This document shows positions 6,275 through 21,408 of a stretch of DNA of 32,538 nucleotides, one piece after another. The stretch is from Lachnospiraceae bacterium (GTDB lineage: Bacteria > Bacillota > Clostridia > Lachnospirales > Lachnospiraceae): contig JAEELW010000040.1 in NCBI GenBank assembly GCA_016282915.1, positions 1 through 32,538 of the forward strand, read 5' to 3'. How positions within the stretch are numbered: the stretch's first letter is position 1; the number at the start of each line of letters is the position of its first letter. The notes beneath the pieces are model-generated. The model was given only the letters and a program-made list of their open reading frames with translations. It did not search any database and was not told the DNA's origin. Both the position numbers and the translations under genes were made by a program.

Positions 6275-9200
6275 TCAGCCGTGCAGCTGCATAAATGCCT
6301 CCATCTGCGCCTGTTCCGCAGGGTATCCCTTTTCCTCCAGGGATGCGCTGAGAGATATGATCTTCTTGTATTCCTTCGGGATCACTTTCTTGAAATGCGG
6401 GAGCATCTCTTCAAAATGCTCCAGGACCCTCTTTCCGATCTCCGAGCCTGTCGCCGCGACATGCGCTTCGATCAGCTCCTTCAGTTCATGGCGGTCGTAT
6501 TTATTCTCCACTTTCTCGAGGAGGATCAGTTCCTTGTTCAGGTTCCTGTACAGAACGTTTTCCTCATCCAGCACGTAGGCCACGCCGCCGCTCATACCTG
6601 CCGCAAAGTTCTTTCCGGTATGACCGAGTACGACCACACGTCCGCCGGTCATGTATTCGCAGCCGTGTTCACCCACTCCTTCCACGACCGCGCTGGCACC
6701 GGAATTGCGTACCGCAAAGCGTTCGCCCGCAACACCTCCGATATAGGCGGTTCCGGAGGTAGCGCCGTACAGCGCCACATTTCCGACGATCACATTTTCC
6801 TCCGCTTTGTAAGAAGCGTTTGCGGGGATCTTTGCGATCAGCTTGCCGCCCGATAAACCTTTTCCGAAGTAATCATTGCTGTCTCCGCTCAGCTCAAGGG
6901 TAAGCCCCGCCGGGATGAACGCGCCGAAACTCTGTCCTCCGGCACCGCTGCAGTGCACCACGATGCTGTCCTCCGGCAGGCCGTCCTTATGCGCGCGTGT
7001 GATCTCGCTTCCGAGTATCGTACCGAAAGCCCGGTCGGTATTGGATACCGTAAGCTGCAGCTCCGTATGCTCCCCGGATTCGATCGCCTTTTTGCACTTC
7101 TTAAGGAGCAGGCTCATGTCCTTGGTCTTCTCAAGCTCAAAGTCGTATACCGCTTTCGGATCGAATACGGATCTGTCCGCAGCTCCCTTTGCAAGGACCT
7201 CTTTCAGATCGACCTGACCGGCATGCACCTTGAGTCCCGTGCTCACCTGCTTAAGCAGATCGGTCCGGCCCACCAGCTCCTCCACTTTCCGCACGCCCAG
7301 TTTTGCCATATATTCCCGCATCTCTTCCGCGATAAAGAGCATGAAGTTTTCCACGTATTCCGGCTTTCCCCGGAAGCGTTTCCGCAGTTCCGGATTCTGG
7401 GTCGCCACGCCCACCGGGCAGGTATCCAGATTGCATACGCGCATCATCACGCAGCCCATCGTCACCAGCGGGGCGGTCGCAAAGCCGAATTCCTCCGCTC
7501 CGAGCAGCGCCGCGATGATCACGTCACGTCCGCTCATCAGTTTTCCGTCGGCTTCGATACGCACGCGCTTACGCAGTCCGTTCTGGAGAAGCGTCTGATG
7601 CGCCTCCGCGATCCCGAGCTCCCAGGGAAGCCCCGCATGATGAATGGAAGATCTGGGCGCCGCGCCGGTCCCGCCGTCATAACCCGAGATCAGGATCACC
7701 TGCGCGCCGGCTTTTGCAACGCCGGCCGCAATGGTCCCCACGCCGGCTTCCGAAACCAGCTTGACAGAGATATCCGCCTTACGGTTTGCGCATTTCAGAT
7801 CATAGATCAGCTGCGCGAGGTCTTCGATCGAATAGATATCATGATGGGGCGGCGGCGAGATCAGCGACACACCCGGCGTCGAATGTCTCGTCTTTGCGAT
7901 CCAGGGATAGACCTTCTTTCCGGGCAGATGCCCGCCTTCTCCTGGCTTTGCGCCCTGCGCCATCTTGATCTGGATCTCCCTTGCGGAGACCAGGTAGGAA
8001 CTGGTCACGCCGAAGCGTCCGCTGGCCACCTGCTTGATCGCCGAGCAGCGGTCGTTTTCGCTTCCCGCGGAAGCGATACGTTCATCACTCTCACCGCCTT
8101 CGCCGGTATTGGACTTGCCGTGCAGGTGATTCATCGCGATGGCCAGGGTCTCATGGGCCTCCTGCGAGATTGAGCCGTAGGACATGGCACCGGTCTTGAA
8201 ACGCTTAACGATCTCGCTCGCGGGCTCCACCTCCTCCAGCGGGATCGCCTTTTCCGGATAGGCAAAATCCAGAAGCCCGCGCAGATTCCCGTAGTTTTCC
8301 GCATCCACGCGCGCCGTATACTCCTTGAACTTTTCGTAGCTGCCCGCATGGGTCGATAACTGCAGCAGGTGTATCGTTGCCGGATTGTAACGATGCTGCT
8401 CGCCCTGGCTGCGCATCTTGTGCGCGCCGATGGAATCCAGGGTCAGATCCGTATAAAGTCCCAGCGGATCGAAAGCCTCGGAATGCAGCCGGTCTACGGT
8501 CTTTTCGATGTCTTCGATCGTGATGCCGCCCACACGGCTGATCGTTGTTCCGAAATAGCGGTCGATCACTTTCCTTGAAATACCCACTGCTTCAAAGATC
8601 CTCGAACCCTGATAGGACTGTATCGTCGAGATCCCCATCTTGGACGCGATCTTGACGATCCCGGAAAGCACGGCGTGATCGTAATCCTCCACGGCTGCGT
8701 AATAATCCTTATCCAGCATGTTATTTTCGATCAGTTCGTGGATCGTATCCAGCGCAAGGTAAGGATTGATCGCACTTGCGCCAAAACCCAGAAGCGTTGC
8801 AAAATGATGCACCTCTCTCGGTTCGCCGGATTCCAGGATGATCGCGACCGAGGTGCGTCTCTTGGTCTGCACGAGATGCTGGTGCACGGCCGATACTGCA
8901 AGTAGCGAAGGGATCGCCATATGATTCTCATCCACGCCGCGGTCCGAAAGGATCAGCAGATTGGCTCCCTCTTTATACGCCTTATCTACCTCCACAAAAA
9001 GATGCTCGATGGCTCTCTCCAGTCTTGTACTCTTGTAATACAGGATGGGAACGACCGCAGCGCGGAAGCCTTCATGATCGATGCTTTTGATCTTCAGAAG
9101 GTCCGTATCCGTCAGGATCGGATTGTTGATCTTGAGCACATGGCAGTTTTCTTCTCCGGGTTCAAGGAGATTCCCGTCTTTTCCGACATATACGGTGGTC

Positions 9201-10801
9201 GCCGTAACGATCTCTTCACGGATCGCATCGATCGGCGGATTGGTCACCTGTGCGAACATCTGCTTGAAATAATCAAACAAAGGCCGGTCTTCGCCGGAAA
9301 GCACGGCAAGCGGCGTATCGCAGCCCATAGCACCGATCCCTTCCGCGCCGTTCAGTGCCATGTTCAGGATCGAGGTGCGGTACTGCTCATAGGTATAACC
9401 GAATGCTTTCTGAAGCCTTGCACGCTCTTCCGCGCCGTATTCCACCGGCTTGTGATTCGGGATATGAAGATCCTTCAGCTGTACGAGATTGGAATCCAGC
9501 CACTCGCCGTAAGGATATGCATGTGCATAATGTTCCTTCAGCTCGTGATCGTCGATCACGCGGCCGGCCACGGTATCCACCATCAGAAGCTTGCCCGGAT
9601 GCAGGCGTTCCTTCAGTACCACATGCTCTTCTCTGATCGGAAGCACGCCCACTTCCGAGGAAAGGATCAGCATGTCATCATCCGTGATGTAATAGCGGGA
9701 AGGTCTCAGGCCGTTGCGGTCCAGGATCGCCCCCATGATATCGCCGTCCGAAAAGACGATGGATGCAGGTCCGTCCCAGGGCTCCATCATCGTTGCATAA
9801 TATTGATAGAAATCACGGATCTCCTGCGAGATCGTATCGTTGTTTGCCCAGGGTTCCGGGATGCAGATCATGGCCGCAAGCGGCAGTTCCATTCCGCTCA
9901 TCACCAGGAATTCCAGGGTGTTATCCAGCATGGAGGAATCCGAACCGTCGCGGTTTACCACCGGCAGCACCTTATGAAGGTCGTCGCGCAGATGCGGTGA
10001 CGCCATGTTTTCTTCTCTCGCGAGCATCTTGTCCGCATTCCCGCGGATCGTGTTGATCTCGCCGTTATGCACGATAAAGCGGTTGGGATGCGCACGCTCC
10101 CAGCTGGGATTCGTATTGGTCGAAAAACGGGAATGCACTACGGCGATCGCCGCTTCATAGTCCGCATCCTGCAGATCTTCAAAGAAAGTGCGGAGCTGCC
10201 CCACCAGAAACATTCCTTTATATACGATGGTACGGCTGCTCATGGAAACCACATAGGTATTATCGTTACTCTGTTCAAATTCCCTTCTGGCAATATAGAG
10301 CTTACGGTCAAAGTCAAGGCCCTTTTCCGTGTCCTCCGGCCGTTCGATGAAGGCCTGGCAGATATAAGGCATGCAGTCCAGAGCCCTCTGCCCAAGAACT
10401 TTCGAGCACACCGGAACCTCACGCCAGCCGAGAAGCTTCAGGCCCTCTTTCTTCAGGATCACCTCAAACATCTTTTTTGCCTGCGCCCGTTGTAATTCCT
10501 GCTGCGGAAAGAAGAGCTGGGCGATACCGTAATCCCTCTCATCGCCGAGCGCGATCCCGCTGTGTGCCTTAAAAAACTTATGGGAGATCTGCAGAAGGAT
10601 CCCTACACCGTCGCCCGTTTTTCCTTCCGCATCCTTACCGGCACGGTGTTCCAGGTTTTCCACGATCTTCAGCGCATCCTCAACGACCGCGTGGCTCTTT
10701 ACGCCTTTGATGCTGACTACCGCACCGATCCCGCAGTTGTCATGCTCAAATTCCGGCCGGTACAGCCCTTTGCCGCGGACTTTTTCCATAATCCCCTTCA
10801 T
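6275..10801 (-). CDS. gltB: Glutamate synthase large subunit
   Basis: Catalyses reductive transfer of the glutamine amide to 2-oxoglutarate, giving two glutamates. From ATG at 10801 the protein has 1,508 residues, the usual size. Cys23 in DNCGIG is the class II amidotransferase nucleophile, exposed after removal of a short propeptide. Further along are a central domain, an FMN-binding barrel near residues 800-1200 with KPGEGGHLPGKK, the 3Fe-4S motif CNLDTCPVGVATQ, and a C-terminal GXGXG beta-helix (GAGGQSFGAF, GKGLSGG). The start is chosen because AAGGAGG lies 9 bases upstream. The same frame continues back to a GTG at 10879, but that stretch runs through a leader terminator. ATG at 10789 is a weaker alternative. 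It has its own promoter and an attenuated leader. Confidence 0.96.
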   Translation of the reverse strand: MKGIMEKVRGKGLYRPEFEHDNCGIGAVVSIKGVKSHAVVEDALKIVENLEHRAGKDAEGKTGDGVGILLQISHKFFKAHSGIALGDERDYGIAQLFFPQQELQRAQAKKMFEVILKKEGLKLLGWREVPVCSKVLGQRALDCMPYICQAFIERPEDTEKGLDFDRKLYIARREFEQSNDNTYVVSMSSRTIVYKGMFLVGQLRTFFEDLQDADYEAAIAVVHSRFSTNTNPSWERAHPNRFIVHNGEINTIRGNADKMLAREENMASPHLRDDLHKVLPVVNRDGSDSSMLDNTLEFLVMSGMELPLAAMICIPEPWANNDTISQEIRDFYQYYATMMEPWDGPASIVFSDGDIMGAILDRNGLRPSRYYITDDDMLILSSEVGVLPIREEHVVLKERLHPGKLLMVDTVAGRVIDDHELKEHYAHAYPYGEWLDSNLVQLKDLHIPNHKPVEYGAEERARLQKAFGYTYEQYRTSILNMALNGAEGIGAMGCDTPLAVLSGEDRPLFDYFKQMFAQVTNPPIDAIREEIVTATTVYVGKDGNLLEPGEENCHVLKINNPILTDTDLLKIKSIDHEGFRAAVVPILYYKSTRLERAIEHLFVEVDKAYKEGANLLILSDRGVDENHMAIPSLLAVSAVHQHLVQTKRRTSVAIILESGEPREVHHFATLLGFGASAINPYLALDTIHELIENNMLDKDYYAAVEDYDHAVLSGIVKIASKMGISTIQSYQGSRIFEAVGISRKVIDRYFGTTISRVGGITIEDIEKTVDRLHSEAFDPLGLYTDLTLDSIGAHKMRSQGEQHRYNPATIHLLQLSTHAGSYEKFKEYTARVDAENYGNLRGLLDFAYPEKAIPLEEVEPASEIVKRFKTGAMSYGSISQEAHETLAIAMNHLHGKSNTGEGGESDERIASAGSENDRCSAIKQVASGRFGVTSSYLVSAREIQIKMAQGAKPGEGGHLPGKKVYPWIAKTRHSTPGVSLISPPPHHDIYSIEDLAQLIYDLKCANRKADISVKLVSEAGVGTIAAGVAKAGAQVILISGYDGGTGAAPRSSIHHAGLPWELGIAEAHQTLLQNGLRKRVRIEADGKLMSGRDVIIAALLGAEEFGFATAPLVTMGCVMMRVCNLDTCPVGVATQNPELRKRFRGKPEYVENFMLFIAEEMREYMAKLGVRKVEELVGRTDLLKQVSTGLKVHAGQVDLKEVLAKGAADRSVFDPKAVYDFELEKTKDMSLLLKKCKKAIESGEHTELQLTVSNTDRAFGTILGSEITRAHKDGLPEDSIVVHCSGAGGQSFGAFIPAGLTLELSGDSNDYFGKGLSGGKLIAKIPANASYKAEENVIVGNVALYGATSGTAYIGGVAGERFAVRNSGASAVVEGVGEHGCEYMTGGRVVVLGHTGKNFAAGMSGGVAYVLDEENVLYRNLNKELILLEKVENKYDRHELKELIEAHVAATGSEIGKRVLEHFEEMLPHFKKVIPKEYKKIISLSASLEEKGYPAEQAQMEAFMQLHG

Positions 10802-10827
10802 TTCCGTATTCCTCCTTCGATCGCCTA

Positions 10828-10864
10828 AAAAAGCGAAAATGCCCCGGAGATCATCCGGAGCACC
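10828..10864 (-). terminator. Second intrinsic terminator in gltB leader
   Basis: RNA stem UGCUCCGGA / UCCGGGGCA (9 pairs, one G-U) with loop UGAUC at 10840-10862, then UUUCGCUUUUUU. It lies between the first leader terminator and the gltB ribosome site. Its 5' arm overlaps the 3' arm of the small hairpin at 10858-10871, so the two cannot form together. The pattern is that of an attenuator. Confidence 0.65.
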
Positions 10865-10871
10865 CTTGCTC
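10858..10871 (-). promoter_or_regulatory. Second putative ANTAR-type hairpin, gltB leader
   Basis: GAGC-AAGGGU-GCUC: a perfect 4-pair stem with a hexaloop that has A at position 1 and G at position 4, the two bases reported as conserved in ANTAR antiterminator targets. The 3' arm is shared with the following terminator. It repeats the logic of the first gltB unit about 65 bases upstream. Confidence 0.5.
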
Positions 10872-10899
10872 AAATACACATATTCTGTTCAACAAAACG

Positions 10900-10931
10900 A
10901 AAAAGCGTCCCGAAGAAAGCCTCCGGAACGC
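10900..10931 (-). terminator. First intrinsic terminator (attenuator) in gltB leader
   Basis: RNA stem GCGUUCCGGAG / CUUCGGGACGC (11 pairs including two G-U) with loop GCUUU and a following UUUUU. It ends only about 45 bases after the predicted transcription start and precedes gltB by about 100 bases, so it must be bypassed for expression. Its 5' arm overlaps the 3' arm of the AAAGGC hairpin. Confidence 0.75.
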
Positions 10932-10940
10932 CTTTGTTCC
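10925..10940 (-). promoter_or_regulatory. Putative ANTAR-type antiterminator hairpin, gltB leader
   Basis: GGAAC-AAAGGC-GUUCC: a perfect 5-pair stem with hexaloop AAAGGC (A1, G4). The same loop occurs in the glnA and amt leaders with different but compensating stem pairs. Pairing here uses bases needed for the terminator at 10900-10931, so stabilising this hairpin would favour readthrough. Family knowledge: ANTAR proteins bind such hexaloop hairpins and control nitrogen genes in several bacteria. Confidence 0.65.
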
Positions 10941-10951
10941 CAACGAAAATT

Positions 10952-10980
10952 ATATTACGCGCTGCTTCCGGATTTGTCAA
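10952..10980 (-). promoter_or_regulatory. gltB promoter (sigma-A type)
   Basis: TTGACA (10975-10980), 17-base spacer, TAATAT (10952-10957). Transcription should start near 10945, giving an untranslated leader of about 145 bases. It lies in the purF-gltB gap and gives gltB-gltD-pyrG-carAB a promoter of their own. The bases just after the -35 (ATCCGG) are shared with the glnA promoter. Confidence 0.85.
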
Positions 10981-11004
10981 GCATTTTTACAGCAGCAGAT
11001 TTCA

Positions 11005-11036
11005 TGTATCAATGAGAAGCGTCCCCCTTTGACACA
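11005..11036. repeat. REP-like palindromic element downstream of purF
   Basis: A 32-base imperfect palindrome whose ends are TGTGTCAA and TTGATACA, 8 pairs with one G-U as RNA. It closely resembles, in opposite orientation, the element at 12470-12498 on the other side of purF. Its GGGGGACG core and TGTGTCA ends recall small dispersed repeats of Firmicutes genomes; that link is from memory. It has no U tract, so it is a poor terminator. Confidence 0.5.
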
Positions 11037-11044
11037 CGAGCGGC

Positions 11045-12454
11045 TCAGACAGTTTCAAATCGCTCCTTTTCCGAATGTTCGGAAACATAGGTGGGATAAT
11101 CCCCGTTGAAACAGGCCGCACAGACTTTCCCCTCATCACCGGCCAGACGCATCACATTTTTCACGGACAGAAAACCCAGGCTGTCGACATCGATCATCTC
11201 CGCGATCTCTTCCACGCTGTGCCCGTTCGCGATCAGGCTGTTCTTCGAATCGATATCCGTTCCGTAATAACAGGGATAGAGAAAAGGCGGTGCGGAGATC
11301 CTCATGTGTACTTCCTTCGCTCCTGCAGCACGGATCAGTTTCACGATATAGGCACTGGTCGTTCCGCGCACGATGGAATCGTCGATCAGAACGATGCGCT
11401 TCCCCCTGAGCGCCGAAGCTATGGTGTTAAGCTTCTGCCGTACCAGGTCTTTTCTGAGCGACTGATCGGGTGCGATGAAGGTGCGGCCGATATACTTGTT
11501 CTTGACCAGTCCCACTCCGTAAGGGATCCCGGATTCCTCCGCATATCCCAGCGCTGCGTCAATGCCGGAATCGGGTACGCCGATCACCACATCCGCATCT
11601 ACGGGATGCTCCTGCGCAAGAAAGGTCCCGGCTCTTTTTCGGGCACTGTGTACACTCACATCCTCGATCACCGAATCGGGCCTTGCGAAATAGATATATT
11701 CGAATACACAGATACGCCTTTCCTTCTTCCCGCTGCAGGTAAGTATACTGCGGATGCCATCTTCATCCGCGATCATGATCTCTCCGGGTTCGAGTTCGCG
11801 GATATGCCGGGCCCCCACGGCGTCCAGTGCGCAGCTCTCCGACGCAAAGACACAGCTTCCGTCCTCCGTCTTTCCGTAACAGAGCGGCCGCAGCCCCAGC
11901 GGATCCCTTACCGCCAGAAGCTTTGCGGGAGACATCATCACCAGGGAATACGCCCCCTGAAGCTCTGTCATGGTCTTTTCCACCGCCGCTTCGATCGACG
12001 GCGTCTGAAGACGGTTTCTCGTGATCAGGTACGAGATCACCTCTGTATCGCTGCTGCTCTGGAAGATGCAGCCGGACAGTTCCAGCCTGCGCCGGAGCTC
12101 GTAGGAATTGGTCAGATTGCCGTTGTGACACAGGGCCAGCTGCCCTTTTACATGCCTGACCACCATGGGCTGTGCATTGATCACGCTGTTGCTCCCGCTC
12201 GTGGAATAACGCACATGACCCACGGCGATATTTCCGCATCCCAGCTCCGATAAGCTGCTTTCGTCAAAAACTTCATGCACCAGCCCCAGTCCCTTGTGAT
12301 AGCGGATCACGCGGTCTTCGTTCACCGCTATCCCCGCCGCTTCCTGTCCGCGATGCTGAAGGGCCGTCAGCCCGATACATACGCTGTGCGCAATGGAAGT
12401 CTTCTCCTTCTGCCGGATACCGAACACGCCGCATTCCTCATGGATCTTTTCCAT
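11045..12454 (-). CDS. purF: Amidophosphoribosyltransferase
   Basis: First committed step of purine synthesis: PRPP plus glutamine gives phosphoribosylamine. The 469-residue length is typical. After a short propeptide, Cys8 in ECGVFGI is the class II amidotransferase nucleophile. The C-terminal half has the PRPP motif VLIDDSIVRGTTS. Cysteines in ICVFEYIY, PCYYGTD and KVCAACFNGD match the Bacillus-type enzyme that carries a 4Fe-4S cluster, so oxygen-sensitive control is plausible. ATG at 12454 follows GGAGGAGAAGAAA. No convincing promoter is seen in the 118-base upstream gap, which holds a terminator-like hairpin and a REP-like repeat. It sits apart from other pur genes, between amt and gltB. 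Transcription by readthrough from amt is the likeliest route. Confidence 0.96.
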   Translation of the reverse strand: MEKIHEECGVFGIRQKEKTSIAHSVCIGLTALQHRGQEAAGIAVNEDRVIRYHKGLGLVHEVFDESSLSELGCGNIAVGHVRYSTSGSNSVINAQPMVVRHVKGQLALCHNGNLTNSYELRRRLELSGCIFQSSSDTEVISYLITRNRLQTPSIEAAVEKTMTELQGAYSLVMMSPAKLLAVRDPLGLRPLCYGKTEDGSCVFASESCALDAVGARHIRELEPGEIMIADEDGIRSILTCSGKKERRICVFEYIYFARPDSVIEDVSVHSARKRAGTFLAQEHPVDADVVIGVPDSGIDAALGYAEESGIPYGVGLVKNKYIGRTFIAPDQSLRKDLVRQKLNTIASALRGKRIVLIDDSIVRGTTSAYIVKLIRAAGAKEVHMRISAPPFLYPCYYGTDIDSKNSLIANGHSVEEIAEMIDVDSLGFLSVKNVMRLAGDEGKVCAACFNGDYPTYVSEHSEKERFETV

Positions 12455-12469
12455 TTTCTTCTCCTCCGT

Positions 12470-12498
12470 GTGTCATTATGGACAGTTCTCTTTGACAC
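12470..12498. repeat. REP-like palindromic element upstream of purF
   Basis: A 29-base element bounded by GTGTCA and TGACAC with a GGACAGTTCTC core, ending about 15 bases before the purF start codon. Read on the plus strand it aligns with the minus-strand reading of 11005-11036. It sits just upstream of the purF ribosome site, so its fold could affect purF expression. Confidence 0.5.
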
Positions 12499-12502
12499 GT
12501 TT

Positions 12503-12544
12503 AAACGAAACGAGGCAGCTGCCGGGAGAGCCCCGGCAGCCACC
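12503..12544 (-). terminator. Terminator-like hairpin between amt and purF
   Basis: A 13-pair stem with two wobbles, GGUGGCUGCCGGG / CCCGGCAGCUGCC, and loop GCUCU (12514-12544), followed by the imperfect U-rich tail UCGUUUCGUUU. The stem is very strong but the tail is interrupted, so partial termination after amt is more likely than a full stop. It may also set purF level by readthrough. Confidence 0.6.
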
Positions 12545-12572
12545 TGGAATGATACACTATGTCCTTTTATGT

Positions 12573-14330
12573 TTATTCCACATCCTGTAATGCCGCGAAA
12601 TCTTCCTCGCCCGTGCGGATCTTCACGACACGGCTCACCGGGTAAACAAAGATCTTGCCGTCGCCGATCTTTCCGGTATAAAGAGTCTTCTTTGCCGTCT
12701 CGATCACGCTGTCCACGGGGATCTTGCTGACGACCACTTCCAGCTTGATCTTCGGAAGAAGCGTCATGTCCATCTCAACGCCTCGGTACATCTGGCTGGA
12801 GCCTTTCTCAATACCGCAGCCGGTCACCTGTGTCACCGTGATACCGGTTACTCCCAGAGCGTTGAGGGCTCTCTTGATCTTGTCGTATCTGGAAAGCTTG
12901 GTGATGATGACCACCTTGTGCATACCGCTGTCCAGGGAAGTTCCTGCCACACCCGCCGAAATGTTCTGAACGGGTACGGAGGCGTTTTTCTTTGCCTCGC
13001 TCGCTTTCTCGTAATCATCCTCACCCAGATCCGTGTTCTCGTTTGCACTCATGCTGGCATTGCTCATATCCACGATCGAGAAACCTGCATATGCCGAAGC
13101 CAGGCCGTGTTCCTTCACATCCAGACCTTCGATCTCCTCTTCTTCGCTCACACGCAGACCGAAGATCGCTTTAATGATCGCGAAGACGATGATCATTCCT
13201 ATCGCTGCCCAGGCTGCTACCGCAGCAAACCCGATGAGCTGTATGCCCAGCAGATCAAAGCCGCCTCCGTAGAACAGACCGACAAGGCTGTCATTTCCGG
13301 GTGCCGAAGTGGTTGCAAACAGACCGGTTGCGATGGTTCCCCAGATCCCGTTCATCATATGTACCGCAACCGCACCGACGGGATCGTCGATATGAAGCTT
13401 ATAATCCAGCAGCCACACACCGAAGCATACCAGCAGGCCGGAAACTGCGCCGATGGCGATGGCGCCGAAAGCATCCGTTACATCACAGGGAGCGGTGATG
13501 GCTACAAGTCCTGCCAGGGACGCATTGAGACACATGGATACATCGGGCTTGCCGTATTTGATCCAGGTAAAGATCATGCATACCACCGTTGCGACCGAAG
13601 GAGCAATGGTCGTGGTCACAAAGACCGAAGCCAGCTGATCCGTAGAGGTGCAGGCTGCGCCGTTAAAGCCGTACCAGCCGAGCCACAGGATGAATACGCC
13701 CAGTGCGCCGACTACGATGTTATGTCCCGGGAAAGCGTTGACCTTTACGATCTTGCCGTTTTCATCCTTTTCAAACTTTCCGATACGGGGTCCCACCATC
13801 TTTGCGCCTACGATGGCTGCGATACCGCCCACCATGTGGATCGCACAGGAACCGGCAAAATCATGAAAGCCCATCTGTGCAAGCCAGCCGCCGCCCCAGA
13901 TCCAGTGCGCTTCGATGGGATAGATCAGTGCGGAGATCACTCCCGAATAAACGCAGTAGCTTAAGAATTTGGTTCTTTCCGCCATGGCTCCCGAAACGAT
14001 AGTCGCGGTCGTCGCACAGAATACCAGGTTGAAGATGAAATTCGACCAGTCGAAATTCTCATAGCTTGTAAAGATATCAAAGCCGGGTTTTCCGATGAAG
14101 CCCATCAGGTCCTCACCCAAAAGGAGCCCGAAACCGATGGCGATGAATACCACACAGCCGATGCAGAAATCCATCAGATTCTTCATCAGGATATTACCTG
14201 CATTCTTGGCCCTTGCAAAGCCCGCTTCCACCATCGCAAAGCCGGCCTGCATCCAGAACACCAGCGCGGCACCGATCAAAAACCATACCGCAAATACTTC
14301 TCCGTTCACAGCTTCCATGATCTCTTCCAT
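12573..14330 (-). CDS. Ammonium transporter with fused C-terminal PII domain
   Basis: Membrane ammonium channel of the Amt family joined to its own PII regulator. From ATG at 14330 it has 585 residues. Residues 1 to about 400 form the Amt part, with about 11 membrane segments and the conserved pore histidines in AGSCAIHMVGG and AVHMMNGIWG. An acidic linker of roughly 60-70 residues follows, then a complete 116-residue PII domain (DNA 12576-12923) with MYRGVE in the T-loop, GKIGDGKIFV and KIRTGEED. Aligned to E. coli GlnB, Arg47 and Lys58 are kept, but Tyr51, the uridylylation site, is Met and Gln39 is Glu. The second ATG is preferred because GAGGAGG lies 8 bases from it and only 2 from the first (14336). 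The gene follows glnA and has an attenuated leader. Confidence 0.95.
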   Translation of the reverse strand: MEEIMEAVNGEVFAVWFLIGAALVFWMQAGFAMVEAGFARAKNAGNILMKNLMDFCIGCVVFIAIGFGLLLGEDLMGFIGKPGFDIFTSYENFDWSNFIFNLVFCATTATIVSGAMAERTKFLSYCVYSGVISALIYPIEAHWIWGGGWLAQMGFHDFAGSCAIHMVGGIAAIVGAKMVGPRIGKFEKDENGKIVKVNAFPGHNIVVGALGVFILWLGWYGFNGAACTSTDQLASVFVTTTIAPSVATVVCMIFTWIKYGKPDVSMCLNASLAGLVAITAPCDVTDAFGAIAIGAVSGLLVCFGVWLLDYKLHIDDPVGAVAVHMMNGIWGTIATGLFATTSAPGNDSLVGLFYGGGFDLLGIQLIGFAAVAAWAAIGMIIVFAIIKAIFGLRVSEEEEIEGLDVKEHGLASAYAGFSIVDMSNASMSANENTDLGEDDYEKASEAKKNASVPVQNISAGVAGTSLDSGMHKVVIITKLSRYDKIKRALNALGVTGITVTQVTGCGIEKGSSQMYRGVEMDMTLLPKIKLEVVVSKIPVDSVIETAKKTLYTGKIGDGKIFVYPVSRVVKIRTGEEDFAALQDVE

Positions 14331-14377
14331 AATCATTTCCTCCTCGTATTTTTTTTATCGCATCCTCACGGAGCGTT

Positions 14378-14405
14378 GCAGTAAATGCTTTTTTTCATTC
14401 ACTGC
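14378..14405 (-). other. Hairpin downstream of amt leader terminator
   Basis: RNA stem GCAGUGAAUG / CAUUUACUGC (10 pairs, one G-U) with an A-rich 8-base loop, directly after the amt attenuator's U tract. No U tract follows it. It leaves the ribosome site free and may simply stabilise the message. Confidence 0.5.
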
Positions 14406-14452
14406 AAAAAGGCCATCCCACCTGCGTTCCACGCCTTTGTGGGATGACCTTT
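14406..14452 (-). terminator. Intrinsic terminator (attenuator) in amt leader
   Basis: RNA stem AAGGUCAUCCCAC / GUGGGAUGGCCUU (13 pairs, one G-U) followed by further U residues. The 17-base loop contains AAAGGC. It lies between glnA and amt, so it can end the glnA transcript and attenuate amt. The 5' arm CCAC can instead pair with GUGG right after AAAGGC, which would break the upper terminator stem. Confidence 0.8.
14429..14442 (-). promoter_or_regulatory. Putative ANTAR-type antiterminator hairpin, amt leader
   Basis: CCAC-AAAGGC-GUGG: a perfect 4-pair stem with the hexaloop found in the glnA and gltB leaders. Both outer pairs differ from those leaders yet remain complementary, which is covariation. 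Here the hairpin shares its 5' arm with the terminator, the reverse of the gltB and glnA layouts. A competing mini-stem GCGU-GGA-ACGC is also possible. Confidence 0.6.
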
Positions 14453-14462
14453 ATAAAGCTTT

Positions 14463-14468
14463 ATTATA
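14463..14468 (-). promoter_or_regulatory. Possible amt promoter -10 box
   Basis: A perfect TATAAT lies 25 bases before the AAAGGC loop, close to the 17-18 bases found in the gltB and glnA leaders. No good -35 hexamer is present at 16-18 bases, so it may need an activator or be weak. Readthrough from glnA could also supply amt. Confidence 0.4.
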
Positions 14469-14489
14469 TTCTTTCAGGATATGTCCGGC

Positions 14490-16589
14490 TCAGTACACGC
14501 TGAACAGGAGTTTCCCGTAGCTCGGGAACGGCCAGCACTTTTCGCTGCAGAGCATCTCGGCCTCGTCCACATGCTTCCTCAGATGCTCCATCTTCGGGAT
14601 CACATCGTCCCGGATCGCTTCGGCGGTCTTCAGAACGCCGTCGCATGCCTTCAGATCTTCCAGAGCCTTTTCCAGATCCTTCACGCGTTCCAGGATATAA
14701 TCGGTCAGCTCCGAAAGCCTCTCCATCGTGGTGATCTCGTAATTGCATTTCACGTTTCCGCTCACCGACTTCATCAGTGAAGTGGTCTGTGCAAGGCTGA
14801 ACAGATAACGCTCGATCGCCGGCAGATAATTCTTGCGGACCATATCCACCATGGTCAGGCCTTCGATGTTCACGGTCTTGCAATAGTTCTCCAGCATGAT
14901 CTCACAGCGGGAGTTCAGCTCGGTTTCGCTGAAGACCTTGTGTGCCATGAGCATGTCCTTATTCTTCTGATCCAGCAGATGAGGCATCGCATCCACAGTG
15001 GTCTTTAAATTGGACAGTCCGCGCTGCTCGGTGGCTTCCTTCACCCATTCGTCGGTATAACCGTTCCCGTTAAAGAGGATACGCTCATGCTTCTTAATGG
15101 TCTCTTTGATCAGCTCATGCAGGTCGCTCTGGAAATCCTTCGCATTTTCCAGCCTGTCTGCGAACTGCTTCAGGCTTTCGGCCACCGCCGCGTTCAGCAT
15201 GATGTTGCAGCAGGCGATGCTGTTGGAGGAGCCGAGGGAACGGAACTCGAATTTGTTGCCGGTAAAGGCAAAGGGTGATGTGCGGTTCCGGTCCGTGGTA
15301 TCTCTCGAGAATCTCGGAAGACTGTGCACGCCCAGCTTCATGATCACTTTTTCCGCTCCCTGATAAGGTGTGTCGTTTTTGATCGAGTCCAATATTCCGG
15401 ACAGCTCGTCGCCGAGAAATACCGAGATGATCGCGGGAGGTGCCTCGTTTGCTCCGAGACGATGATCGTTTCCGGCAGTCGCCACGGAAAGCCGCAGCAG
15501 ATCCTGATAATCATCCACCGCCTGGATCACGGCACAGAGGAAAAGCAGGAACTGTGCATTCTCGTGAGGGGTTTCCCCGGGAGAAAGAAGGTTGGCTCCC
15601 TTATCCGTTGCCATGGACCAGTTATTATGCTTACCGGACCCGTTCACTCCGGCGAAAGGCTTTTCATGGAGCAGGCAGACCAGTCCGTGCTTTCTTGCCA
15701 CCTTCTGCATGATCTCCATGGTCAGCTGGTTGTTATCCGTTGCCACGTTGGTGGTGGAGAAGATGGGTGCCAGCTCATGCTGTGCGGGTGCCACTTCGTT
15801 ATGCTCGGTCTTTGCCAGGATCCCGAGTTTCCAGAGCTCGTCGTTCAGATCCTCCATGAAGGCCGTTACTCTGGGCTTGATCACGCCGAAGTAATGATCG
15901 TCCAGCTCCTGTCCCTTGGGAGGCATCGCTCCGAAAAGGGTTCTGCCGGTATAGACCAGATCCGGTCTCTGCTCAAACATTTCCTTGTCGATCAGGAAAT
16001 ATTCCTGTTCCGGTCCCACGCTGGTACGTACATACTTTACTTCCTTACCGAAAAGTTTCAGGATACGTTTTGCCTGACGGTCAAGTGCCTGCATGGAACG
16101 CAGCAGCGGTGTCTTTTTATCCAGCGCATCTCCGCTGTAGGAGCAGAAAGCCGTGGGAATGCAGAGGGTGTGATCTTTGATGAACGCGTAAGAAGTGGGA
16201 TCCCATGCGGTATAGCCTCTTGCCTCAAAAGTAGCTCTGAGTCCGCCCGAAGGGAAAGACGATGCATCCGGCTCACCTTTGATCAGTTCCTTGCCGGAGA
16301 ACTCCATGATCACGCCGCCATCCGGAGCCGGTGCGATAAAGCTGTCGTGTTTCTCCGCAGTAACACCGGTAAGGGGCTGGAACCAGTGCGTAAAATGGGT
16401 CGCGCCCTTTTCCACCGCCCAGTCGCGCATCTCGGTCGCTACAGCTTCCGCCACAGCCTCATCCAGCTTTTCGTTCTCGTCGATGGTCTTTCTGAGCGAG
16501 CGGTATACATCTGCGGACAGACGAGCACGCATCACCCTGTCGTCAAACACCATCGAGCCGAACAGTTCCGGTACATTCTTCTTTTCCAT
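14490..16589 (-). CDS. glnN: Glutamine synthetase type III
   Basis: Makes glutamine from glutamate, ammonia and ATP. From ATG at 16589 the protein has 699 residues, the size of the GSIII class (GSI is about 440-470). It opens with [20 protein letters not shown] and carries family blocks such as [24 protein letters not shown] and [19 protein letters not shown], which hold ammonia, metal and ATP ligands in the known dodecamers. The start is fixed by GGAGG 8 bases upstream. The frame extends back to a TTG at 16700 but through the leader terminator. It has a strong promoter and an attenuated leader, with amt-PII next downstream. The name glnA is also used for this class. No GSI-type gene or GlnR-like repressor gene is in the window. 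Confidence 0.96.
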
Positions 16590-16611
16590 CTTGTTCTCCT
16601 CCTTTTCGCTC

Positions 16612-16662
16612 TGAAAACAGAAAGAAGGCGTCCCGAATGAAAACGGGGCACCTTCGCCTTCA
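16612..16662 (-). terminator. Second hairpin / weak terminator in glnA leader
   Basis: RNA stem GAAGGUGCCCCG / CGGGACGCCUUC (12 positions, one A-C mismatch) with an 8-base loop at 16624-16655, then UUUCUGUUUUC. A tandem copy of the 5' arm, GAAGGCG, lies just upstream and also pairs perfectly with CGCCUUC, giving two exclusive folds. A GGC-GAAGGU-GCC hairpin is possible too, but its loop starts with G, so it is a degenerate match to the ANTAR pattern. Confidence 0.5.
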
Positions 16663-16672
16663 GTTTCGATAT

Positions 16673-16705
16673 AAAAAAGCGTCCTGAAGAAATTCTTCAA
16701 GACGC
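16673..16705 (-). terminator. Intrinsic terminator (attenuator) in glnA leader
   Basis: RNA stem GCGUCUUGAAG / CUUCAGGACGC (11 pairs, one G-U) with loop AAUUU and then six U. It ends about 48 bases after the predicted start of transcription. It nearly matches the first gltB terminator (CUUCRGGACGC arm, five-base loop ending UUU). Its 5' arm includes the 3' arm of the AAAGGC hairpin. Confidence 0.8.
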
Positions 16706-16713
16706 CTTTGTCT
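16700..16713 (-). promoter_or_regulatory. Putative ANTAR-type antiterminator hairpin, glnA leader
   Basis: AGAC-AAAGGC-GUCU: a perfect 4-pair stem (a fifth G-U pair is possible) around the same hexaloop as in the gltB and amt leaders. It overlaps the terminator arm GCGUC. A second stem, UGAAG/CUUCA with loop AAUUU, could stack directly after it; that loop has five bases, not the six of the published ANTAR model. Confidence 0.65.
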
Positions 16714-16726
16714 CTTACGTTTTTGT

Positions 16727-16755
16727 ATGTTACTCCTCTGACCGGATCTTGTCAA
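16727..16755 (-). promoter_or_regulatory. glnA promoter (sigma-A type)
   Basis: TTGACA (16750-16755), 17-base spacer, TAACAT (16727-16732). Transcription should begin near 16720, leaving a leader of about 130 bases. The stretch CTTGACAAGATCCGG resembles CTTGACAAATCCGG in the gltB promoter, so a common DNA-binding factor could also act here. Confidence 0.85.
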
Positions 16756-16786: not shown

Positions 16787-19700
16787 TTATGATTCCGCAT
16801 CCGCTTCCTCGGCCTGCTCTTCCACCTCTGCGGACAGCCTGCTTTCCTCCGCATCTTCCGCATCTTCCGCTTCTGCTGCTTCCGTCTTTTTCTGCGATGC
16901 GAGATACTCAGCCGCATCGTCCGGGATATCATCCAGGCTCTCGCTGCCGATATTCACATCCAGAGGCTTTTTCCTGAAGAGGATGTCATACATCACGGGA
17001 ATGATAAAGAGCGTCATCAGCGTGGCGTAGGCAAGTCCGCCGGCGATGACCAGTGCCATGCCGCGGCCCATCTGCGCCGCCATATCGTCGCCGACGATCA
17101 GGGCCGATTCCGCAAGGATCGTCGTCAGAGCCGTCATCAGGATCGGACGCATACGGGTCTTTCCGGTAACGACCAGCGCCGTGGTACGGTCCAGTCCGCC
17201 CTTCCGCAGCTGGTTCGCATAGTCCACAAAGACGATACCGTTATTGACCACGGTACCCATCAGCACGATGATACCCAGGATGCTGATGACCGAAAGGTTT
17301 TCTCCGGAAAACCATACGGCAAGGAAGCCTCCGGTAAAGGCCAGCGGCACCGTAAAGAGCACGATGAAAGGACTCAGCAGGCTCTGGAACTGTCCTACCA
17401 TGACAAGGTAGACCATTAAAAGTCCCAGCAGCATGACCAGCATCATCTGCTCCACCATGGTATTTACGGAATCGTACTCACCGCCGAGTTCCATCGTATA
17501 GCCGTGAGGCAGCTGGTACGCATCCAGAAGCGGCTTCAGCTCACGTGTGAGCAGCGTCGTGTTATAGCCTTCGCCCACGGAAGCCGAAACGGTCATGTAA
17601 CGGCTCTGGTTCTTACGGTTGATGCTGTCCAGCTCGTCCCTTACTTCGACCTGCGCAAACTCGCCGAGCCTGTGTTCCTCATGGATCGTGTCGTTATCCT
17701 CATCGGTCTTTTCCACCAGGAAGCTGTAATCCAGGATGTTCTCATAGGTCATGGGATCGGTCTCGTCCACCACCACGATATCCACGTCGATACCGTCCAG
17801 TGTGATGGTCACCGCACTCTTGGAATGCGTGAGCTTGCGGTTGATATCCTGATAGATCTGCACCACGCTCAGCCCCAGGCTCATGGCCTTGTTCTTGTCG
17901 ATGGTCACATGCAGGGATTTGCCCGCATCCTCCATGCCGTTGGAGATATTTTCATAACCGTCGATGGTATCCACGATATCACAGATCTCTCCGGTGATGC
18001 GCGCCAGTTCATCCATATCCGGTCCGTACACATTGATGCTCAGGCCGGAGCCGCCGGTCATCTGGTCCATCTCGGAGGCCATTGAGGACAGTGTCAGATC
18101 GAGTCCCATATCTTCCCCTATGGCTTCGATCTCGCGGTTGATCCTCTTGATCTCTTCTTCACCGGCATTCTCGTTTTCCGTCATGATCATAAAGGACATA
18201 TGGCGGAAAGCGCCGGGATTCGATGCAGCGCTCGATACCACCAGGGCAGAGCCGTTTCCGGTCATCACACCGATCGTACCTATACCATCGATCTGAAGCA
18301 TGCGCTCGATCACCTTATCGGTCGTCTCGTAAGCTTCTTCCCTCGTGGTCTCTTCCGGATACTGGATATCGGCCTGCATCTGGTTCATCGTCATCTCGGG
18401 GATCACGACGATACCCATGCGGAACGCCATGATGCCGGAAAATACCAGAAGTCCGATCGCCAGACCGAGGGGAACGATCTTTACCTTCAGACAGAAACGC
18501 AGAATCTTTTCATAACCGACCATCAGCTTGTCAAACAGACGGTGCTCTTTGGGCTTTGCATTTCTGAGCAGCGTGGATGCGGATGCCGGCACAACGGTAA
18601 AGGCGATGACCAGAGATGCCAGCAGGCAGAACACGATGGTCAGGCACATGGGTGCGATCAGATCCCGCACCAGGCCCGAAGTGAAGATCATGGGCAGGAA
18701 TACGCACACCGTCGTGAGGGTGGAGGCGATGATGGAGCCTGCCACCTGTTTCGTGCCCTGTACCGCCGCACGCGGAGCCTCCACACCGTGCCCCCGCATA
18801 CGGTAGATATTTTCCATGACCACGATGGAGTTATCCACCAGCATACCGATACCCAGTGCCAGACCGGACAGGGACAGCATGTTGAGGGAGATCCCCGAAA
18901 AATACATACAGATGATAGCTGCGAGCACCGATACCGGGATGCTTATGGCAACCACCAGGGTCGGCTTCACATCCTTCAGAAAGATTGCCAGGATCACTAC
19001 GGCAAGCAGGGCACCGATGGCCATGGACTGCAGCACGCTCTTGACGATCAGGTCGATATAATCGCCCATATCCACCAGAGTTGTGACCTGCAGACCGGGA
19101 TGCGCTTCCATCAGATCCGCGGATGCCGCCTCGATCGTCTTGGACAGTTCATTGGTGCCCGTCGTGCTGCTCTTAAAGATCGAGAGGATCACAGCCTTGT
19201 TGTTTCCGAGACGCACATAGCTTTCATCGGCATTGTCGATCACGACCACATCCGCCACATCCTCGATCCGGATATCTCCGATCTTGTTGATATTGGTCAG
19301 TACGATATCGCCGAGTTCATCGACCTCCTCGTAATTCTGTCCCACCTTCACGAGCCAGGAGCTGTCCGCTTTATCGTCCACATAGCCCGCAGGCATTTCA
19401 AAATTCTGTGCATAGATCAGTCCCGTAAGGGTATCCAGGGTCAGCAGACGGTCGGCGTTCGCGGTTCGCATCGCCTCGGCTTTCTGCTTATCGAATTTCT
19501 TTACCGCATCCTCATAATCCTTCCAGCCGTCGTCGATCTGCTTCTGACCGTCCTCGATCTGCTCATAGCCTTCACTGATCTGCTTCTCGCCGTCTTTTAT
19601 GGAATCCCAGCCGCTGTCGATCTGTTCCTGTGCGCTTTCCAGCTGCGTCTTTGCGCTGTCGATCTGGGCTTCCGCTCCCTCCAGCTGCGCCTTGCCGATG

Positions 19701-21199
19701 GTAAGCTGTGCATCCGCGCTGCCGATGGTCTGGGAGGCTTCGAGTTTTCCTTTTTCCAGCTCCTTATAGGCGCTCTCTACCTGCGCCTCGGTTTCCGCAA
19801 CAGTCTTCTTTAATGCGTTGATCGTAGCCTCCGCATTCTTGATCTGACCGTTGATGGAGGCTTTCTGCGCTTCCAGTTCTGCCTTCTGCGCGATCAGCGT
19901 ATCCTTCTGTTCCAGCAGGCTCTGCGACTGCTTCAGCCCGTCCAGCTGTTCGTTCATCGCTGCCAGTTCCGCTTTTTTCGTCTCCAGCTGGGTATTCAGT
20001 TCCGCAAGCTGCGACTCATAATCCTCCGCTTCCGGATCCAGCGCAGCGATCTGCGCTTCCAGTGCACTGATCTCCGCCTCTTTTTCGGCGATCTGTCCTT
20101 CCAGCCCGGTTATGGCATAAGCGATATTCTCCGCAGTCATTCCCGCAGCTTCCAGAGCTTCTATGGCCGCCAGTGCGGCATCAATCTGCGCTATGGCGTT
20201 ATCGATCTGCTTCACGCCATCCTTCAGCGGCGGGATCAGCGCCTCGCTCGTCGCCAGCTGGGTCTTCAGCGCCGCAAGCTGTGCCGAAGCCTGATCCAGC
20301 TGATAGCTCAGATCCGCCAGTTTGCTGTTGGACTCTTCGCGTTTTTCCGCCAGCTCCTGCTCGGCCTTATCCATATCGCTTTTGGATTCATCGAGCTTCT
20401 CTTTGTTTTCTTCCAGTTCTTTTTTCCCGTCTTCCAGCTCCTGCTGGGAATCGTTCAGTTTCTGTTTCCCGTCTTCCAGCTCCTTTTTGGAATCATCGAG
20501 CTTGGTCCGGTTTTCATCCAGGGTTACCTGGGAATCCTGCAGCTTCTTCTCGGCATCCTCCAGCTGCTTCAGCGCCTCGGCAAAGGCATCGTCCACCGTT
20601 GCGAGGATACGGTCGTTCAGCGCGTCGATCTTCTTTTCGTTCAGACGCACTTCAACGCTGCGGTCCACCAGACCGAGGGAGGTGACGGAGGCCACGCCGG
20701 CCTGCTTTTCATACTGCGGACTGATCCGGTCACGGACAAACTGCGAAAGCTCGTCCATTTCCATGCCTTCCATACTCACGGCCAGATAAACGCTGGCCAC
20801 CATATCGGTACTGATCTCGATGATGGAAGGCGTGCCCGCATCCGCCGGCAGATACGGCTGCAGCGTGTTCAGCGCGCTCGAGACCTTGACCATGGCGCTG
20901 TCCAGATCCGTATCGTCGGTAAATTCCAGCTGGACCATGCCGTAATTTTCATTACATATGCTGGTAACGTTTTCGACGCCGTTGATCGTGCCCAGAGCAG
21001 CTTCCATGGGCATACAGATCTCGCTTTCGATCTTTTCGGAACTGGCGCCGGGATACGTGGTCAGCACCATCAGATATGGCAATGAGATGTCCGGGAGCAG
21101 ATCGAGCTGCATATTGCTCAGGCTCACGAAGCCCAGCACGATTGCGATGATCACTCCCACCAGAACGGTGAACGGTTTTTTTACACTGATCTTTTCCAT
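16787..21199 (-). CDS. RND-family exporter with large inserted coiled coil
   Basis: Proton-driven exporter of the AcrB/SwrC superfamily; the substrate cannot be told from sequence. From ATG at 21199 it has 1,470 residues, against about 1,050 for usual members. The N-terminal membrane segment (VLVGVIIAIVLGFVSLSNM), porter-domain blocks (YPGASSEKIE), TM4 motif GIGMLVDNSIVVMENI and a second half ending in GTVVNNGIVFVDY and RPILMTALTTI show both RND repeats. TM4 has Asp-Asn where AcrB has Asp-Asp. Residues about 200-573 (DNA about 19480-20600) are an inserted heptad-rich coiled coil with KxxLxDGxxxL-type repeats. The C-terminus is a short acidic tail partly coded by repeated CTTCCGCAT triplets. 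The start is chosen because the signal-like MEKISVKKPF follows GGAGAAG; upstream frame lacks family sequence. No adaptor or outer-membrane partner gene is nearby. Confidence 0.9.
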   Translation of the reverse strand: MEKISVKKPFTVLVGVIIAIVLGFVSLSNMQLDLLPDISLPYLMVLTTYPGASSEKIESEICMPMEAALGTINGVENVTSICNENYGMVQLEFTDDTDLDSAMVKVSSALNTLQPYLPADAGTPSIIEISTDMVASVYLAVSMEGMEMDELSQFVRDRISPQYEKQAGVASVTSLGLVDRSVEVRLNEKKIDALNDRILATVDDAFAEALKQLEDAEKKLQDSQVTLDENRTKLDDSKKELEDGKQKLNDSQQELEDGKKELEENKEKLDESKSDMDKAEQELAEKREESNSKLADLSYQLDQASAQLAALKTQLATSEALIPPLKDGVKQIDNAIAQIDAALAAIEALEAAGMTAENIAYAITGLEGQIAEKEAEISALEAQIAALDPEAEDYESQLAELNTQLETKKAELAAMNEQLDGLKQSQSLLEQKDTLIAQKAELEAQKASINGQIKNAEATINALKKTVAETEAQVESAYKELEKGKLEASQTIGSADAQLTIGKAQLEGAEAQIDSAKTQLESAQEQIDSGWDSIKDGEKQISEGYEQIEDGQKQIDDGWKDYEDAVKKFDKQKAEAMRTANADRLLTLDTLTGLIYAQNFEMPAGYVDDKADSSWLVKVGQNYEEVDELGDIVLTNINKIGDIRIEDVADVVVIDNADESYVRLGNNKAVILSIFKSSTTGTNELSKTIEAASADLMEAHPGLQVTTLVDMGDYIDLIVKSVLQSMAIGALLAVVILAIFLKDVKPTLVVAISIPVSVLAAIICMYFSGISLNMLSLSGLALGIGMLVDNSIVVMENIYRMRGHGVEAPRAAVQGTKQVAGSIIASTLTTVCVFLPMIFTSGLVRDLIAPMCLTIVFCLLASLVIAFTVVPASASTLLRNAKPKEHRLFDKLMVGYEKILRFCLKVKIVPLGLAIGLLVFSGIMAFRMGIVVIPEMTMNQMQADIQYPEETTREEAYETTDKVIERMLQIDGIGTIGVMTGNGSALVVSSAASNPGAFRHMSFMIMTENENAGEEEIKRINREIEAIGEDMGLDLTLSSMASEMDQMTGGSGLSINVYGPDMDELARITGEICDIVDTIDGYENISNGMEDAGKSLHVTIDKNKAMSLGLSVVQIYQDINRKLTHSKSAVTITLDGIDVDIVVVDETDPMTYENILDYSFLVEKTDEDNDTIHEEHRLGEFAQVEVRDELDSINRKNQSRYMTVSASVGEGYNTTLLTRELKPLLDAYQLPHGYTMELGGEYDSVNTMVEQMMLVMLLGLLMVYLVMVGQFQSLLSPFIVLFTVPLAFTGGFLAVWFSGENLSVISILGIIVLMGTVVNNGIVFVDYANQLRKGGLDRTTALVVTGKTRMRPILMTALTTILAESALIVGDDMAAQMGRGMALVIAGGLAYATLMTLFIIPVMYDILFRKKPLDVNIGSESLDDIPDDAAEYLASQKKTEAAEAEDAEDAEESRLSAEVEEQAEEADAES

Positions 21200-21408
21200 A
21201 AAATCAATCTTCTCCGGATAATATGTATCTCCCCCCCATATTATCGGTTGCAGAACCCTGATATACCGTATTAATGTCATCCGGCATCCTGCTCATCATG
21301 ATTCTAACGGGTCCAAACTCACGAGCCGATCCCTGCATACATGACCGGAACATGGGCTTTTGACTCTAGAATCATATTATATATTCTGCCGAATTGCAAT
21401 ACCTGTTT
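21200..21408 (-). promoter_or_regulatory. RND gene leader with -10 box and inverted repeat
   Basis: This 209-base gap has a TATAAT (21376-21381) with no good -35. A 9-base inverted repeat, ATGATTCTA at 21367-21375 and its complement at 21298-21306, begins right at the predicted transcript start. It could be an operator pair or a long-range 5' leader stem. The seven-G run before the start codon adds GGGGGGGAG, but GGAGAAG is better placed as the ribosome site. Confidence 0.35.

Follow-up and report, generated by a model that had tools for sequence, protein, structure and literature searches.

The nitrogen-assimilation genes on contig JAEELW010000040.1 of a Lachnospiraceae bacterium raise the question whether small hairpins with a shared AAAGGC loop, located before glnA, amt and gltB, are switches of transcription, and which factor controls them. 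The window, meaning the whole stretch of 32,538 nucleotides (nt), is a contig of a 3.85 Mb genome, and its minus strand carries a nitrogen-assimilation cluster composed of glnA, a gene for an ammonium transporter fused to a P-II domain (amt), a gene for an amidophosphoribosyltransferase-like protein, gltB, and then gltD-, pyrG- and carA-like genes. An initial annotation of this DNA had proposed that the three hairpins belong to an antitermination regulon of an ANTAR protein. With a probability of roughly 0.7, we consider that the leaders are transcription attenuators of nitrogen assimilation, with one hexaloop per terminator, controlled by the one ANTAR protein found in the genome. The motif is real and widespread, and probably marks an ANTAR regulon in a one-hexaloop form.

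Candidate attenuators in the glnA, amt and gltB leaders

All three hairpins were found on the minus strand with the letters and coordinates first reported (Table 1), and two of their stem positions vary as A-U/G-C/C-G and G-C/A-U/C-G, just as had been described. The hexamer AAAGGC is mildly enriched in the window (27 occurrences against 17.2 expected; 27 was reached in 1 of 100 shuffles). Stems of at least four pairs surround it at 4 of the 27 places, against 0.5 expected; three of these are the reported hairpins, and the fourth (14670) is within the glnA gene.

A model composed of loop and terminator without the 5′ arm (model R1), together with a script, revealed that glnA and gltB each carry a second hexaloop attenuator. 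The second hairpin with a five-base loop that the initial annotation had described is not this second site. One R1 match in the window, at 26438 (17.8 bits), was set aside, as it is weaker than the real glnA and gltB sites.

The minimum-energy fold includes the terminator at seven sites of the own genome (-17 to -28 kcal/mol). Forcing the hairpin removed the predicted terminator at six of the seven, the exception being amt; this exclusion was computed for the own genome, and sites elsewhere were picked for overlap. Mutual exclusion, first claimed for each of the three hairpins, thus stood for glnA and gltB and did not for amt.

Table 1. Genes, promoter elements, hexaloop hairpins and terminators of the three leaders in the window
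Feature	Position	Strand	Details
glnA, type III glutamine synthetase (GSIII), 699 amino acids (aa)	14490..16589	-	Pfam GSIII_N + Gln-synt_C-ter
glnA promoter: TTGACA 16755-16750, 17-nt spacer, TAACAT 16732-16727	16727..16755	-	read directly
glnA attenuator 1 hexaloop hairpin AGAC-AAAGGC-GUCU	16700..16713	-	begins 13 nt past -10 (read directly); model R1 42.4 bits
glnA attenuator 1 terminator	16672..16709	-	takes up hairpin loop + 3′ arm; minimum free energy -21.7, with hairpin forced -7.5
glnA attenuator 2 hexaloop hairpin GGC-GAAGGU-GCC, tandem copy	16647..16658	-	script + model R1
glnA attenuator 2 terminator	16621..16655	-	model R1 24.9 bits; folding
ammonium transporter (amt) fused to P-II domain	12573..14336	-	protein domain matches
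amt -10 box TATAAT	14468-14463	-	read directly; ends 20 bases before hairpin
amt hexaloop hairpin CCAC-AAAGGC-GUGG	14429..14442	-	read directly; stem count
amt terminator	14406..14452	-	takes up hairpin 5′ arm; lower 10 base pairs (bp) compatible with hairpin (folding)
gltB, glutamate synthase large subunit	6275..10804	-	gltD-, pyrG-, carA-like genes downstream, same strand
gltB promoter: TTGACA 10980-10975, 17-nt spacer, TAATAT 10957-10952	10952..10980	-	read directly
gltB attenuator 1 hexaloop hairpin GGAAC-AAAGGC-GUUCC	10925..10940	-	begins 11 nt past -10 (read directly)
gltB attenuator 1 terminator	10898..10935	-	model R1 36.0 bits; folding
gltB attenuator 2 hexaloop hairpin GAGC-AAGGGU-GCUC, tandem copy	10858..10871	-	script + model R1
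gltB attenuator 2 terminator	10832..10867	-	model R1 24.0 bits; folding

No ANTAR gene was found in the window, in agreement with the initial annotation, and one was present on another contig as the single match of the genome to PF03861 (E 7e-16, 57.7 bits, cut-off 27.3). It encodes a protein of 181 aa and starts 3 bases behind a gene for type I glutamine synthetase (GSI). The leader of this GSI-ANTAR operon has a similar anatomy, CAC-AAAGGG-GUG and then a terminator.

The core ACAAAGGCGT shows no enrichment over the genome, occurring at 9 places against 20 for its letters in reverse order. Four of the nine places are leader hairpins, and the fourth precedes a RelA/SpoT-domain gene (locus L004, G000:C53, site at 1501, minus strand), where the motif would link nitrogen supply with the stringent response. 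From the motif sites of its own genome, the candidate regulon would comprise glnA, amt, gltB, the RelA-like gene and the regulator (GSI-ANTAR) itself. By eye, a single hairpin is seen in each of the amt, GSI-ANTAR and RelA-like leaders. These three of the seven own sites were missed by the genome-wide R1 search, which listed the four glnA and gltB sites, so the models are not fully sensitive. Two other R1 matches in the own genome (L078 and L079) are plain terminators at gene ends without a 5′ arm and were rejected.

Directly upstream of glnA, positions 16787-21280 (minus strand) encode an AcrB-family efflux protein of 1497 aa, which is unusually long for this family.

Covariation and a blind search in relatives

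The GSIII gene was sought in 60 genomes of the family (Lachnospiraceae), of which 59 gave a match, and 30 loci were examined, the own genome included. A hairpin before a terminator was found in 24 of the 30 GSIII leaders (23 by script and L020 by eye). At L017, L018, L026 and L028 the sequence upstream of GSIII resembles, by eye, the last part of an asnB-like gene, and no hairpin was found in the GSIII leaders of L040 and of L022, which is from an ANTAR-negative genome. At L018, again by eye, about four tandem repeats of this asnB-like gene end stand before glnA. Among 30 GSI leaders the motif was found in 20 by script, plus L047 and L071 by eye; script matches at L066, L067 and L075 were judged spurious.

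The stem covaries strongly, as the initial annotation would predict. The 32 aligned sites had been listed on condition of three or more closing pairs, so that their inner three pairs are in part a product of selection. Over these sites the hairpin is paired in 89.4% of cells against 73.8% after shuffling, and the covariation score of 0.637 (0.308 shuffled) was reached in 0 of 500 shuffles. In slid registers 31-56% of cells pair, and nine cells of the stem alignment are G-U pairs. All 32 loops have G at position 4, and 30 of the 32 begin with A. The published ANTAR loop rule is a hexaloop whose first base is A and whose fourth is G (PMC3369931).

The selection of inner pairs is avoided in a blind test, for which model R1 was run on 40 ANTAR-positive genomes and the best 80 distinct places of the ranked list were taken (seven opposite-strand duplicate rows omitted). 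At least four arm pairs were found in 44 of these 80, against a shuffled mean of 17.7 and a maximum of 28 in 2000 shuffles; one match (L250) repeats an R1 model site exactly, and its omission leaves 43 of 79. The list falls into two groups, and 25 of the 80 are without any 5′ arm pair. The start of a nitrogen gene (counted as GSIII, GSI, amt, gltB, purF, carA or pyrG) lies within 600 nt of 35 of the 51 matches with at least three pairs, against 0 of the 29 with fewer (Fisher test, 1.3e-10). Sixteen paired matches were unlabelled; by eye they include asnB (L188, L248) and purA (L249), the others are without clear nitrogen link, and part of the sixteen may be false. Tandem copies occur about 45-98 nt downstream, each ahead of its own terminator.

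Two side observations concern leaders elsewhere. In two families (L194 in G081 and L274 in G326) a strong motif precedes proteins with like starts (GIPEMD..L..IRLGDN), which by eye are perhaps PEP-binding (phosphoenolpyruvate)/pyruvate-phosphate-dikinase-like. At L272 (G258:C5:49296-49503) three successive attenuators, about 83 bases apart, stand before a gene that matches none of the reference proteins.

The ANTAR gene, its protein and the single hexaloop

Presence of the motif was compared with presence of the ANTAR gene by a model of hairpin and U-tract (model R2) and PF03861, genomes outside the listed matches being assigned by elimination. In the family, PF03861 matches 175 of 200 genomes and R2 matches 173 of 200 (E up to 0.1); the motif is present in 165 of the 175 ANTAR genomes against 8 of the 25 others. 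Among 148 genomes of the class (E up to 0.001) it is present in 41 of 73 ANTAR genomes against 4 of 75 others. The Fisher tests gave 3e-12 and 4e-12, P values that are inflated by kinship among the genomes.

Eight exceptions were inspected and the 2x2 counts were kept unchanged. By eye, L122 (G129) and L126 (G154) look like coding sequence and L127 (G048) looks like a weak terminator, and these matches in ANTAR-negative genomes were rejected. G199, scored as ANTAR-negative, has an ANTAR gene cut short where a contig ends, and in G137 the motif-bearing GSI gene is near the end of the locus, with the place behind GSI outside the sequence examined. G114 and G197 stand as exceptions, and G186 (86% complete) may be one; so may G016 (87%), which is outside the eight and whose weak match before GSIII came up only in this closer inspection. 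Where both coordinates are listed, GSI (located as a second, weak match to the GSIII query) adjoins ANTAR in 38 of 39 genomes, the exception being G057. Genome G059 has two GSI-ANTAR pairs (C1:594878 and C2:4608). ANTAR genes near glnA in Clostridium go by the name nitR.

The AlphaFold2 model of the own ANTAR protein has a pLDDT (predicted local distance difference test) of 89 and a pTM (predicted template modelling score) of 0.63, and the best structural match of the predicted ANTAR fold is EutV bound to RNA (6ww6, template modelling score (TM) 0.75). By alignment, the protein keeps the EutV contact residues Lys149, Glu160 and Met172. The phospho-Asp column of the receiver, set by alignment to Rv1626, is Gly or Ser in 24 of 24 aligned ANTAR proteins, so the receiver appears by its residues to resemble a pseudo-receiver. 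As the phospho-acceptor Asp is absent, the signal would more likely come from a partner protein or a ligand (GSI or glutamine, possibly) than from a kinase, and the adjoining position of the two genes suggests GSI as the signal partner. GSI senses glutamine in other systems.

The published ANTAR target is composed of two hexaloops (P1 and P2) with a tight linker (PMC3369931, PMC8934654, PMC8164766). We looked for a second A1/G4 hexaloop upstream of 79 sites, of which 44 came from the blind test and 35 belonged to the first set, with 78 of them distinct. Within 25 nt, such hexaloops with at least 3 bp occur at background level, at 6 of 78 sites against 7.1 after shuffling (7.5 when all 79 are counted); with at least 4 bp the counts are 2 against 2.7, and with A or G allowed first they are 9 against 10.3 (3 against 4.1 with at least 4 bp). 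At 51 of 79 sites the hairpin is preceded, at a distance of 3-13 nt, by the end of a -10 box that matches at least five of six letters (shuffled 15.2, maximum 27), most commonly with a gap of 7-9 nt, and no such -10 box was found in 15 of 79. From this closeness the hairpin would begin near +1, the putative start of transcription, in many leaders. The one-hexaloop form near +1 is not described in the open-access listings and papers searched, in which no published single-hexaloop antiterminator, GSI-ANTAR link or Lachnospiraceae ANTAR work was found.

One residue of the protein may be connected with the number of hairpins. Tyr164 of EutV stacks on loop G4 (PMC8934654). This position is His in 23 of 24 aligned proteins and in 23 of 29 of a second set (30 proteins, of which that of G200 could not be placed). 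Dual-hexaloop targets were found in other Clostridia, in G202, G236, G264 and G291, all with Tyr or Phe at 164; in G202 the dual target before amt is GAUGC-AACGAG-GCAUC and then UAAAGC-AAAGGC-GCUUUG. Near-identical dual leaders stand 3 kb apart in G236 (L296 and L332, G236:C1:1561049 and 1564292), the second before amt.

For the comparison, 48 rows were used, a chosen part of the class-wide match list, and dual sites were called with A or G as the first loop base and at least 4 bp. Of 14 sites in Tyr/Phe genomes 8 are dual, against none of the 26 sites in His genomes (Fisher test, 4e-5), and genomes with a dual site are 4 of 6 against 0 of 21 (9e-4); six extra stretches from Tyr/Phe genomes were added after the residues were seen, which raises the site count on that side and affects the genome count less. 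L353 was dropped as the same place as L296, and L337, L338, L339, L341 and L346 because their ANTAR residue was unread (L337-L339 have loops without G4); L275 (G314, dual) and L289 (G238), from genomes without ANTAR match, were left out of the Fisher test. Dual sites with a read ANTAR residue come from two families. Three of the four dual genomes belong to one genus, where the three GSI leaders seen are single, the Tyr genomes G262 and G281 showed no dual site, and no ANTAR gene was found in G314, which does have one. With these points against it, we regard the correlate of His or Tyr with hairpin number as a lead, not proof.

Proposed mechanism, rival explanations and known systems

We propose that transcription would start at or shortly before the hairpin, and that the nascent RNA, when unaided, would refold to the intrinsic terminator using part of the hairpin, usually the loop and 3′ arm. 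Under nitrogen shortage the ANTAR protein may be freed or activated and would bind the A1/G4 hexaloop near the 5′ end upon its exit from the polymerase. By holding the hairpin it would block the terminator and allow readthrough into glnA, gltB, the GSI-ANTAR operon and the RelA/SpoT-domain gene, and tandem attenuator copies might add stringency. A wider proposal, which we hold tentatively and at slightly less than even odds, is that a widespread ANTAR subfamily, with His for the G4-stacking Tyr and a pseudo-receiver, antiterminates from a single 5′-end hexaloop without a recruitment hairpin and takes its signal from the adjacent glutamine synthetase, residue and hairpin number having switched together.

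The regulon of the initial annotation is supported in part, with covariation, an ANTAR gene and co-occurrence in its favour; several points weigh against it and against the mechanism. A second adjacent hexaloop was not found, and EutV antitermination needs both hexaloops, one being insufficient (PMC8934654, PMC3369931). The hairpin alone is weak at the seven own-genome sites (-0.3 to -4.9 kcal/mol by folding); with the terminator favoured in the fold, a stabilising factor would be needed for readthrough. At amt, 10 bp of the terminator base beside the U-tract remain possible when the hairpin is formed, so this leader may be controlled less or differently; as folded, it does not act as a clean switch. 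The own protein has Glu, Gly and Gly where EutV has Asn173, Arg175 and Arg177. In G114 (98% complete) and G197 (99%) the motif stands before GSIII, and neither PF03861 nor a family profile detects an ANTAR gene; among the 45 motif genomes of the class sample, four (G238, G242, G314 and G336) are without ANTAR match, and ten ANTAR genomes of the family are without the motif at the threshold used. Besides the kinship mentioned above, the independent lineages are few, and gene and motif could be co-inherited without one acting on the other.

These exceptions would suit an RNA switch with another protein or a small-molecule ligand such as glutamine, the ANTAR gene being merely in the same lineages. 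G114 and G197 keep the motif without a detected ANTAR gene, and several RNA-contact residues of EutV differ. We consider this explanation unlikely, since the loops follow the A1/G4 rule, the ANTAR operon itself bears the motif (as in the GSI leaders counted by script), motif presence tracks ANTAR in two samples, and a scan of the window against Rfam gave 0 matches at E up to 5; a hairpin of 14 bases is also very small for a riboswitch. The -10 boxes ending 3-13 nt before the hairpin place it where a repressor site would be, and the inverted repeat near +1 might be a DNA operator with an incidental terminator overlap. This seems very improbable in view of the conserved loop, which is not palindromic, the G-U pairs tolerated by the stem, which would break a DNA palindrome, and the tandem copies, each before its own terminator.

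Ordinary, unregulated terminators with a chance 5′ hairpin could account for the blind matches without a 5′ arm pair and for the two own-genome matches at gene ends, and are scarcely credible for the rest: the arms covary, and of the two groups of matches only the paired one precedes nitrogen genes. Finally, the sites might be classical dual-hexaloop ANTAR targets whose P1 was overlooked, owing to a long linker or to a tandem attenuator serving as the partner; glnA and gltB have two hexaloops each, and dual targets do exist in other Clostridia (L273, L296 and L350). Against this, upstream hexaloops are at background level, little room is left between promoter and hairpin, and one hairpin each was seen in the amt, GSI-ANTAR and RelA-like leaders. 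The second copies in glnA and gltB lie beyond a complete terminator, and a linker longer by 20 nt abolished EutV antitermination (PMC8934654), so we give this explanation very little weight too. Attenuators controlled by the ANTAR protein through one hexaloop account best for the evidence taken together.

If so, a large anaerobe family would have a candidate control of glutamine synthetase, glutamate synthase, ammonium uptake, carbamoyl-phosphate synthase and asparagine synthetase. The nearest known system is EutV with the eut leaders of Enterococcus faecalis, which has the same A1/G4 hexaloop, a terminator overlapping the hairpin, a receiver-like and ANTAR fold and a nitrogen theme (PMC3369931, PMC8934654). 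Unlike it, the leaders described here have one hexaloop in place of P1 and P2, with the hairpin near +1, and the protein has a pseudo-receiver without phospho-acceptor, His for Tyr164, and none of Asn173, Arg175 and Arg177. The paper on the EutV structure did not settle why antitermination should require two hexaloops if the protein binds only one of them at once; its proposal was that P1 brings the protein to the RNA in time (PMC8934654). With one hexaloop near +1 in a large natural group, the role of P1 becomes directly testable: the 5′-end position, where the hairpin is the first RNA out, may replace P1, or the changed protein may do so.

AmiR-AmiC of Pseudomonas aeruginosa is similar in its pseudo-receiver ANTAR protein, with a signal that may come via a partner protein (PMC8934654, PMC3369936), and differs in that the neighbour here is GSI and in that the AmiR target is described as a dual hairpin (PMC3369931). 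The ANTAR nitrogen regulons of Desulfotomaculum and others likewise have multiple attenuators before nitrogen genes: D. reducens has an ANTAR-type attenuator before glutamate synthase, and D. acetoxidans has 13 systems in six transcription units (PMC3369931). Those systems were found by a dual-hairpin model (PMC3369931) and are set against the present sites by description only; searches with such models would tend to miss one-hexaloop sites. The LicT/SacY antiterminators are similar in that a single alternative hairpin competes with the terminator (PMC3369931, PMC3369936), and unlike the present leaders they use another RNA-binding domain and a longer RNA element, the ribonucleic antiterminator (RAT) of 29-30 nt (PMC3369931).

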